From Methanosaeta sp. PtaB.Bin018 (GTDB lineage Archaea; Halobacteriota; Methanosarcinia; Methanotrichales; Methanotrichaceae), in contig MVQH01000024.1 in the NCBI GenBank assembly GCA_002067755.1, positions 1-56,177 of the forward strand: a stretch of DNA of 56,177 nt, in the 5' to 3' direction. A model generated the notes under the pieces. It did not search any database. It was not told the origin of the DNA and was given only the letters and a program-made list of their open reading frames with translations. Shown here in pieces: positions 28,740-31,602 of the stretch (positions are counted from its first letter, which is position 1; every line of letters starts with the position of its first letter). A program made the position numbers and the translations under genes.

Positions 28740-29432
28740 TCACTTAAGTCTTTCTTCGACCTCTGATGAGCAGACGATGATCTGCACAGGCTTTATGATT
28801 ATATTCGAAGTGGCCACTGCACTGCCACCCTCAACGGTATTTATGGCGCTGACAGTTATGCCGCTAACATCGATGTTCATGCTATTCCCAAAGCGCTGCG
28901 ATGGCCTGCCTTGCCTTGTAGCTTGAGAGCAGTTATCATTGATGCAAGAATTCAATTTATCGTCAACAATCTTTTCAATATCCTCGCCTTCGTCTGCGAT
29001 CGACCACTCTTTTTCCGAGTGCTCCTTGCCTGTAACACTGACGTCCAGAAGATTCGCCAGGCCTTGCGCCTCAGGGTCCCCGTTTTGGAGGTCATCGTAA
29101 AAGATATCCCTTTGTAGGAGGGCATTCATCGCCTTAAGATCTTGAACTTGATGATCGGAATTGGATTCGTTCAAGCGAACCTTCTCCACCACTGGTGCTG
29201 AATGAAGGATAAAATCCGCCCTATGAGTCGATGAGACCTGCGGCCTTCGCGAAGCCCAGGGAAAGATATGGGTATCATTATTGGGAAGCTTGAGCTGCCC
29301 TACATCCGATTCAAATTGAGGATGAATCGAATTTGATCGTTGTTCTGTCGCTGATGCTCCAAGCATCAAGCAGAGACAAACAAAAGTGGCCCCCACCAGC
29401 AATGCGCCGGTGGGCCCCATTTTTCTGTTCAT
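28740..29432 (-). CDS. Secreted protein B1 of a duplicated A-B cassette
   Basis: A 230-residue exported protein. The signal peptide is GALLVGATFVCLCLMLGASA. The middle region has LQRDIFYDDLQNGD, and the C-terminus carries NIDVSGITVSAINTVEGG then ATSNIIIKPVQIIVCS. Its paralogue at 30307 shares this C-terminus (VYVSNILVSAMNTVEGGN, ATSNIIISPVQ) and the RDI-Y/F-x-DD motif. The two cysteines in INDNCSQ may pair. There is no anchor. It begins 30 bases after A1 and is surely co-transcribed with it. No family is recognised. The conserved SAxNTVEGGxAxATSNIII block probably forms a beta-structured assembly or binding module. Confidence 0.75.
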   Translation of the reverse strand: MNRKMGPTGALLVGATFVCLCLMLGASATEQRSNSIHPQFESDVGQLKLPNNDTHIFPWASRRPQVSSTHRADFILHSAPVVEKVRLNESNSDHQVQDLKAMNALLQRDIFYDDLQNGDPEAQGLANLLDVSVTGKEHSEKEWSIADEGEDIEKIVDDKLNSCINDNCSQATRQGRPSQRFGNSMNIDVSGITVSAINTVEGGSAVATSNIIIKPVQIIVCSSEVEERLK

Positions 29433-29462: not shown

Positions 29463-29945
29463 TTACTGCTGGTTGGTGGCGATCTCTACGTTGTTTTGAG
29501 CCAGAGTAGACGCAGCGTTCCTCGCGAAGGGGAAGGCACCCTGAATGCCGACTCCGATGGCAGTGGCACTTCTGCTTCCTACCTCGATCTGCTCGACGTT
29601 GTACTTGGGACTGCAAGATGCACATGTGGCACTGTCGCCTGTATCCTGATTTTTCTTGATCTTCAGGTTGTTTTGTGCAGTGACGGCCGCTGAATTCGTG
29701 CCAAATGGTCCTACAAACTGCGCGCCTACACCGATTGACAGAGCGTTATCATTTCCTACCTTAACTGAGTCGTAGTTCGTATTTGACGCTGCAGGGAACT
29801 TGAATGCGCTGCCTTGGGTCTCAAAAATTCCCTCGCCCAGAACATCCACACCACCATTTCCAACTATTGCGCTTTGGGCCATCACTGGAGCCGCAAGAGC
29901 TGCCACAGCCATAGCCAGCACAAAGAATATTGCTACTCTTTTGAT
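29463..29945 (-). CDS. Secreted protein A1 of the duplicated cassette, apparent AUC start
   Basis: From the ATC codon at 29945 the protein reads (M)KRVAIFFVLAMAVAALAAPVMAQ, a perfect signal peptide. The only standard start downstream, GTG 29921, would leave a signal with no positive charge. GGTGAG lies four bases before the ATC, and a TATA box GTATATATATAATT lies 46-59 bases upstream. The paralogue at 30904 has the same arrangement. The mature protein is weakly repetitive: VGNDNALSIGVG, then AQNNLKIKKNQD, and VGSRSATAIGVG, then AQNNVEIATNQQ. The repeats are rich in N, Q, G and A, somewhat like curlin-type amyloid repeats. CASCSP may bind metal or form a disulfide. Confidence 0.7.
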   Translation of the reverse strand: MKRVAIFFVLAMAVAALAAPVMAQSAIVGNGGVDVLGEGIFETQGSAFKFPAASNTNYDSVKVGNDNALSIGVGAQFVGPFGTNSAAVTAQNNLKIKKNQDTGDSATCASCSPKYNVEQIEVGSRSATAIGVGIQGAFPFARNAASTLAQNNVEIATNQQ

Positions 29946-30080
29946 AGTCTCACCCCATAAATCTTTTTAGATTAGACTTAACTAAATCCCAATTATATAT
30001 ATACTTTTTGGCGTCTTTTTTAAAGATGTAATAGAATTATAGAGATATTTGAAACCAAAAATTTTCCATGCGATATTGGA

Positions 30081-30108
30081 GATGAGATATGCAAGATGAG
30101 ATATGCGA
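30081..30108. repeat. 14-bp near-perfect tandem duplication
   Basis: GATGAGATATGCAA at 30081-30094 is followed by GATGAGATATGCGA at 30095-30108, one mismatch in 14. It lies in non-coding DNA upstream of A1. Confidence 0.9.
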
Positions 30109-30181
30109 CCCATATAATGCAATCCCAAATAGCAAGCTTCGCATGGCCACAGGACTCAAGAGCTAAATGCAAAAGCCTCGG

Positions 30182-30253
30182 AAAAAACGCCCATGGCCCA
30201 AGGTCACCCATGTGGATGAAAATGGATCTTTGCGATAACCATTTTCATGCCAA
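30182..30253. repeat. 72-bp structured intergenic element, copy 1
   Basis: 67 of 72 bases match the copy at 39309-39380, with no gaps. It holds a short hairpin (TGGCC-CAA-GGTCA) and a 10-bp hairpin (ATGAAAATGG with CCATTTTCAT) around a 13-base loop. Two of the five differences lie in that loop and one changes an A-U pair to G-U on the plus strand, so pairing is kept. An A-rich start on the plus strand reads as a T-run on the minus strand. It may be a small RNA or a mobile repeat. Confidence 0.8.
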
Positions 30254-30306
30254 GAAACAGATTAGGTTTTTCGCCTTTGCTAGAGATATTGGGCCCATAT
30301 CGGGCA

Positions 30307-30870
30307 TTATTTCAACTTTTCTGATACCTCAGGGAGGGAGTAGATCATAGTTTGGACAGGACTTATGATTATATTGGACGTGGCTGCTGCATTGCCACCT
30401 TCAACTGTATTCATGGCGCTAACCAATATATTGCTTACATAGACATTAAGATGGTTTCCAACAAAACAGGACCCGTAACCTCTAGGCTCTCCATTCGGAT
30501 GATCGCTTCCATCAGTCAGACCGCCATCTACCCATATTTCCAAAGCGTTGCCAACAGGTTGGCGCCCCTGACCATCGGTCCGAGAATCATCCCAATAAAT
30601 ATCCCGTCGCTTTAATTCATTTGTTACAGATAGGTCCTCCACTTTTGCCTTTGAATGAGAGCCATTTATGAGAATCGCCTCATCGAGAAGCTCGAGCTGC
30701 CCTACTGCAGGCCTCTGCCCATGATGAACGAGATCAGATTGAAATTCTTTGACCTTATTGAGCGGCTCGGACAGATCAGGGTGATGCTCTGCTAAGGCCA
30801 AGATCGATAAAAAGCAAATAAAGAAAAAAACCACCAGCAGCATGCCAGTGGATTTTAGCAGGGCATCCAT
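30307..30870 (-). CDS. Secreted protein B2 of the duplicated cassette
   Basis: A 187-residue paralogue of B1 with a signal peptide (LLVVFFFICFLSILALA). It has the shared RRDIYWDDSRTD motif and the C-terminal block NVYVSNILVSAMNTVEGGNA, ATSNIIISPVQTMIYS. B1 has a longer middle section of about 40 residues that B2 lacks. B2 starts 33 bases after A2, the same spacing as in the A1-B1 pair, so the pair was duplicated as a unit. No anchor, enzyme motif or known domain is seen. The plus-strand reading of this area is not a gene. Confidence 0.75.
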   Translation of the reverse strand: MDALLKSTGMLLVVFFFICFLSILALAEHHPDLSEPLNKVKEFQSDLVHHGQRPAVGQLELLDEAILINGSHSKAKVEDLSVTNELKRRDIYWDDSRTDGQGRQPVGNALEIWVDGGLTDGSDHPNGEPRGYGSCFVGNHLNVYVSNILVSAMNTVEGGNAAATSNIIISPVQTMIYSLPEVSEKLK

Positions 30871-30903
30871 ACAGTACCGTCTTTTTAGGTCGGATATCAG
30901 GAT

Positions 30904-31362
30904 CTACTGCTGATTGTCCACGATCTTCACATTGTTGGCGGCTTGGGCAAATCCGAATGCAAGAGATTCTCTGTTGCCAACCTTGATCTGTGCGATGTTA
31001 AGCTTAAGACAGCTATCCTGACAGATTGGGTTGCCTTCTGCATCGTTAGCCACACATGGATCACAGGCGCCTGAGTCCTGGTTCTTCTTGATCTCCAGAT
31101 TATTCTGAGCATTGGCAGGACCATTGCTAAATCCGAATGGGAAGCTTTTGCCCATTCCAAATGCTGTAGCTTTATCGTTTCCCACCTGCACTGAGCCGTA
31201 GCTGGTATCTTGGTAGACAGGGAAGGTGAATGCGCTCCCATCAGTCTCGAAGATGCCATCGCCCAAAATGTCTACCTTGTCTCCACCCATTGCCGTCTGA
31301 GCCATAACTGGAACCGAAAGAAACGCCATGGCCAGAGCCACAAATACTCCTATTTTTTTGAT
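30904..31362 (-). CDS. Secreted protein A2 of the duplicated cassette, apparent AUC start
   Basis: From ATC 31362 the protein reads (M)KKIGVFVALAMAFLSVPVMAQ, a typical signal peptide, with GGTGAG four bases upstream; GTG 31341 is the first standard codon. The leader TATGGGGTGAGACTATCAAA is conserved with A1, and the TATA box (AAATATAAGT) lies at the same distance. The mature protein shares DGIFETDGSAFTFP, VGNDKATAFGMG, AQNNLEIKKNQDSG and the ending ANNVKIVDNQQ with A1. Four cysteines occur in the central insert (CDPCVAND, ICQDSC). Length 152 residues. Confidence 0.72.
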   Translation of the reverse strand: MKKIGVFVALAMAFLSVPVMAQTAMGGDKVDILGDGIFETDGSAFTFPVYQDTSYGSVQVGNDKATAFGMGKSFPFGFSNGPANAQNNLEIKKNQDSGACDPCVANDAEGNPICQDSCLKLNIAQIKVGNRESLAFGFAQAANNVKIVDNQQ

Positions 31363-31602
31363 AGTCTCACCCCATACATTCTTTAATATAGTCTTCTGTG
31401 GGTATTAATAATACTTATATTTTTTGGTAAGTTATACTCGATTTTTTCCCATGGCCGTCAGATAAAAACGCTGATATTCTACGATGATATCTAGAGTCCT
31501 ACGATGGTGTCTTGGGAGGGCACTCAATAAAAATGTAGGGGGATATGATTGAAAATCATAAATAATATAATAACTTTTGGTGGTAAAATAAAAATCGTAT
31601 AG

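Follow-up and report, generated by a model that had tools for sequence, protein, structure and literature searches.

Where does translation begin in two paralogous secreted-protein genes that have no standard start codon at the expected place? The window, the whole stretch of 56,177 nucleotides that was analysed, corresponds to contig C24 in a genome of 2.23 Mb (G000), and both genes lie on its reverse strand. Gene A1 (29463..29945), read from ATC, has 160 codons and specifies a signal peptide followed by two imperfect beta-rich repeats ending NN-x-x-I-x-x-NQ. Gene A2 (30904..31362), its paralogue, has 152 codons when read from ATC, and the two proteins are 53% identical over 133 residues. The signal peptides were judged by eye, from a signal-peptide-like N-terminus. 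Near-identical loci (L109 and L110, 97–98% identity) are found in Methanothrix sp. MAGs. As the original prediction had it, neither gene contains an in-frame ATG, GTG or TTG from the upstream stop as far as mid-signal peptide. In A1 an in-frame TAA lies a few codons 5′ of the ATC and the first in-frame canonical codon is a GTG at 29921; the first in-frame GTG of A2 is at 31341.

A1 and A2 have the same leader, TATGGGGTGAGACTATC, and both genes begin inside ...TATGGGGTGAGACTATCAAA. The putative ATC start codons (29943..29945 in A1 and 31360..31362 in A2, reverse strand) were in both cases placed by the homologue column and by the onset of the coding signature. Upstream of each is a Shine-Dalgarno (SD) sequence, GGGGTGAG, at 29949..29956 in A1, where it is conserved in 71 leaders and its spacing is the genomic norm, and at 31366..31373 in A2, where it was assigned from homologue leaders. 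The predicted distance of four bases between SD and AUC is correct if counted from GGTGA (4 nt), but it is 3 nt if counted from GGTGAG. A mini-ORF, ATG-GGG-TGA, overlaps the SD of both copies as noted earlier (29950..29958 in A1 and 31367..31375 in A2, reverse strand), and any role for it is putative. TATA-like boxes were recognised by sequence at 29994..30003 in A1 (TATATATATA, its position kept in homologues) and, also from homologues, at 31412..31419 in A2 (TATAAGTA), both on the reverse strand. They lie about 53–54 nt 5′ of the ATC in both copies, in agreement with the equal distance originally claimed. The spacing from TATA box to transcription start is established in archaea, and it predicts a leader of about 25 nt here. 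Each A gene is followed on its 3′ side by a reverse-strand gene with an ordinary ATG start, B1 (28740..29432), encoding a secreted protein, after A1, and B2 (30307..30870) after A2; both were assigned as ORFs with B homologues.

The start column was compared across 82 A genes from 10 genera of the methanogenic Methanotrichaceae. Protein searches detected A-family members in 24 of the 26 genomes from the genus and in 10 of the 11 genera of Methanotrichaceae. None was found in six genomes (G041–G046) of genus g9, though this belongs to the same family, and no homologues were found in viral contigs. The column contains ATC in 37 genes, ATT in 28, ATA in 10 and ATG in 7, and no other codon, so that AUH (AUC, AUU or AUA) occupies it in 75/82 homologues and ATG in 7/82, counts that cover related copies and are not independent. 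The conservation of ATC in related leaders that had been proposed as support is thus found in the broader form of ATC, ATT or ATA. In genus g1 every readable copy has one of these three codons at the column, and an ATG start was counted in 1/60; in L068 an ATG directly precedes the column codon and was counted as the start. In g8, all seven genomes examined use ATA, and an in-frame TGA stands a few codons 5′ of it (TGA-AGG-GGT-GAG-ACT-ATA-AAG-AAA). The column's first two bases, A and T, are 100% invariant in a set of 71 distinct non-ATG leaders, in which the third base varies between C, T and A.

In g4, g5 and g11 the column holds ATG, preceded by the same SD (GGTGAGACT-ATG, GGTGAGACC-ATG and GGTGAAACT-ATG); in g6 and g7 an ATG lies near the column. 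SD and spacing are retained in L152, L153, L166 and L167, all with ATG at the column. Genome G028 carries two paralogues, L151_1 (ATC) and L152 (ATG), that group as sisters with an SH-aLRT value of 100. A tree of the family, built from few columns and with several long branches, requires at least six ATH/ATG changes, four of them forced by starred branches, and about 20 third-base changes at the start codon overall. That ATG should nevertheless be found in only one of 60 g1 genes is suggestive, but no more, of selection against AUG in the genus Methanothrix.

If the column is the first codon, coding constraint should begin there. Substitution rates at codon positions 1, 2 and 3 were 0.19, 0.10 and 0.33 for codons +1 to +12, compared with 0.34, 0.29 and 0.20 for codons –15 to –6, and 0, 0.47 and 0.15 for codon –1, where changes are mostly at the second base (T/I). 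The third-position excess typical of coding sequence sets in exactly at the start-column codon. In 61 of the 75 non-ATG genes the stretch from the upstream stop to the column is free of in-frame ATG, GTG and TTG, and the in-frame stop leaves as little as one codon 5′ of the column (L052, with TAA directly before ACT-ATT). An ATG elsewhere in the leader of homologues had been named as an observation against an AUC start; the other 14 of the 75 do contain an ATG or GTG in frame upstream of the column, but at scattered positions. Four orthologues (in G004, G005, G010 and G025) have an in-frame ATG seven codons upstream and possibly start there. In alignment A1, Ile1 is the one residue of the signal peptide that never varies. 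This comparative evidence identifies the codon that follows GGTGA at four bases as the first codon, which in nearly all Methanotrichaceae members is AUH.

The SD itself is strongly conserved. In the 71 leaders T(–7) and G(–11) of the core GGGGTGA are present in 100% and the other core bases in 93–99%; A(–3) is likewise present in 100%. The distance of 4 nt from GGTGA to the start falls within the 4–6 nt peak of ordinary starts, as determined for 300 predicted genes of the complete-looking Methanothrix-genus genome G001.

The AUH codon might instead be reached by termination and reinitiation, with ribosomes starting at the ATG of ATG-GGG-TGA, stopping at the TGA inside the SD and, held by the SD, restarting at AUH a few bases downstream. 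An in-register ATG...TGA within four codons is present in 58/71 distinct leaders, with two main spacings (ATGGGGTGA in g1 and ATGAAGGGGTGA in g8 and g11), and archaeal termination-reinitiation is documented (PMC6728339). However, AUH is kept in the 13/71 leaders that lack the mini-ORF, and T(–12) of its ATG is conserved in 72%, no more than its upstream neighbours. The mini-ORF is also found 5′ of the ATG-start genes L166 and L167 and is therefore not tied to AUH, and the 5′ end of the transcript is expected only about 13 nt from its ATG. We regard reinitiation as rather unlikely to be the explanation, although it may be a contributing route.

The same element could be read as a programmed +1 frameshift site, at which a shift on GGG-TGA would fuse the ATG start to the signal peptide and give M-G-E-T-I-K. 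The layout ATG-GGG-TGA-G, found in most g1 copies, does resemble a prfB-type site, which also has a short zero-frame ORF ending in TGA beside an SD, followed by a +1 frame without a start. Unlike in prfB, however, the mini-ORF is not universal, being absent from 13/71 leaders (for example L006, ACGGGGTGA; L046, TCGGGGTGC; L048, AAGGGGTGA; and L052), and the codons upstream of the column evolve as non-coding: codons –5 to –1 show no coding selection, and the mostly second-base changes at codon –1 are not coding-like. Some homologues moreover have ATG at the column, and the only programmed frameshift reported in archaea by 2021 was a –1 event (PMC8211752). The +1 shift included in the original prediction thus appears very improbable.

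A start at the first downstream GTG, ATG or TTG inside the signal peptide, where automatic annotation would place it (GTG 29921 and GTG 31341), has hardly any likelihood, as the position scatters from codon 3 to codon 12 among homologues, the codons right after ATH already evolve as coding sequence, and, in line with the loss of positive charge foreseen for the window genes, every K/R of the first eight residues would be deleted in 75/75. Gene callers limited to ATG, GTG and TTG therefore shorten A signal peptides, and the proteins may go unrecognised as secreted. A dedicated initiator tRNA with an NAU anticodon, reading AUH as a cognate start, would account for the retention of AUH over other near-cognate codons, but it is equally implausible: with the pattern GGGCTNATAACCC, one CAU site was found in each of G000 and G001, both of them Met(CAU) tRNAs according to ARAGORN, and no other NAU initiator tRNA in the window genome; a GAT match in G030 was not called as a tRNA, and the AUA users of g8 would require yet another anticodon.

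We therefore consider it probable that translation of the A genes begins at AUC, by direct SD-led initiation at AUH, with output probably capped or regulatable and AUG probably selected against in Methanothrix. The family-wide ATH, its exchange with ATG at the column, the onset of coding and the loss of K/R from any downstream start all argue for the AUC start that was first proposed. With an ordinary CAU initiator tRNA and a conserved SD and spacing, the simplest model is that a strong SD rescues initiation by near-cognate pairing. The SD (GGGGUGA) would anchor the 30S subunit and Met-tRNAi(CAU) would pair with AUH at its first two positions only, so that the protein would still carry an N-terminal methionine before the signal peptide is cleaved. 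As cleavage is expected, a search for peptides of the mature protein would be a weak test of the start. The combination of a weak codon and a strong SD would probably give capped or regulatable output of an envelope protein. Work on S. solfataricus, cited in PMC6237735, describes destabilisation by aIF1 of archaeal initiation complexes on non-AUG mRNA, and output from AUH should then be reduced and factor-sensitive.

AUH codons are, to our knowledge, among the rarest start codons in prokaryotes, and their textbook case is infC, in which AUH is a feedback device. The infC AUU start serves self-regulation (PMC9410913; Butler et al. 1987, listed in PMC9845219). The A genes resemble bacterial infC (IF3) and pcnB, both with AUU starts, in that AUH replaces AUG, and as at infC-like starts the AUH column is conserved (75/82) and an SD stands at functional spacing. 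They differ in being archaeal, in making up a large family of paralogous secreted proteins that have nothing to do with translation factors, and in having no known feedback loop. A is not infC itself, being a secreted beta protein without a Pfam or NCBIfam match and not IF3. Non-AUG starts as such are normal in archaea, where AUG, GUG and UUG are used (PMC7531240), and about 5% of unannotated small ORFs of M. mazei start with CUG (PMC11456600). GUG, UUG and CUG are first-position variants of AUG, whereas the AUH of the A genes is not. We found no report in the open-access literature of an AUH start as a conserved archaeal feature. A start known in bacteria from a few genes such as infC thus appears, from the sequence comparison, to be used here for archaeal envelope proteins. 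A multi-genus, multi-copy AUH family with a few AUG relatives would provide natural paired constructs for the study of archaeal initiation (SD, aIF1 and Met-tRNAi) on near-cognate starts.

AUH does not seem to be a general start in the clade. The paired B genes mostly use AUG (ATG in 58/69 ORFs by the first canonical codon, many B homologues having the N-terminus M...PTG..LVG), which speaks against AUH as a widespread habit. In 20 stretches of G001 totalling 400 kb there was no enrichment of AUH after SDs, 39 per 1000 compared with about 20–54 for non-start codon groups, which likewise argues against general use. A search of three genomes for SD-AUH-K/R sites gave 19 matches, about twice the per-codon control rate, and outside the A family only an S-layer-type gene resembled a gene start. 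B is a second secreted protein, ending in SNIIIxPVQ-type repeats, and its homologues were found at the A loci of most genera examined.

The S-layer-type gene (L196, G000:C71:5321ff; homologues L188–L210 in G000–G025) adjoins a NifH/CfbC-like gene and seems to have no canonical start in many Methanothrix. All g1 homologues read have an ATH-K/R pair (ATC, ATA or ATT, then AGG, AGA, AAA or CGA), and in L191, L200 and L202 an ATA directly follows an in-frame TAG and is aligned with the ATG of L189, L190 and L194. A formate/nitrite-transporter-like family, named from sequence and not by profile search, has ATG at the start column in 23/28 readable sequences; the exceptions are single cases of ATA (L238, G001:C1:2336128), ATT (L254, G027, directly after an in-frame TGA), CTG (L251, G031), GTG and TTG. 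The single AUH cases suggest that the clade can drift into AUH starts; the A family is the reverse, AUH being the rule. A 501-codon secreted ORF (L234:3003-4505, reverse strand; G001:C1:2323003-2324505) has AGGAGGGAGAGAT-ATC-AGG upstream and no upstream canonical start, and is a possible further AUC start. It is conceivable, though on balance unlikely, that AUH starts behind strong SDs are a common control of envelope genes throughout Methanotrichaceae: those of the A family, that of the main S-layer protein and sporadic genes for membrane or secreted proteins. Start-codon stringency, for instance the level of aIF1, would then set envelope output across the clade.

The A protein gave no match in Pfam, NCBIfam or PDB sequence and fold searches. 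AlphaFold models it as all-beta with two imperfect repeats (pLDDT 64–75). It is a beta protein that is secreted or located at the cell surface, and the gene for a second secreted protein lies beside its own. Any role in a matrix or in association with the sheath is a guess. The archaeal SH sheath proteins of Methanothrix and Methanospirillum (PMC11576556) are comparable: A, too, is secreted, all-beta, multicopy, 150–160 aa long and found in Methanothrix. A1 and A2, at 160 and 152 codons and with a signal-peptide-like N-terminus by eye, fall in the SH class of a signal peptide and 150–350 aa. SH proteins have a core of two six-stranded beta-sheets; the A model is all-beta at pLDDT 75, with no match in the PDB search. 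A differs from SH in that the searches gave no sequence or fold match and in being absent from genus g9. A is not MspA, which is 60.9 kDa (PMC6242892). A curlin-type amyloid was also rejected, the curlin repeat profile being absent from the Pfam matches of 40 A members. One A-type beta repeat was seen in long ORFs of 431–610 aa (G009:C130:5558, G015:C3:18576, G047:C48:17997 and G024:C7:8052), and the repeat therefore also occurs in larger proteins.
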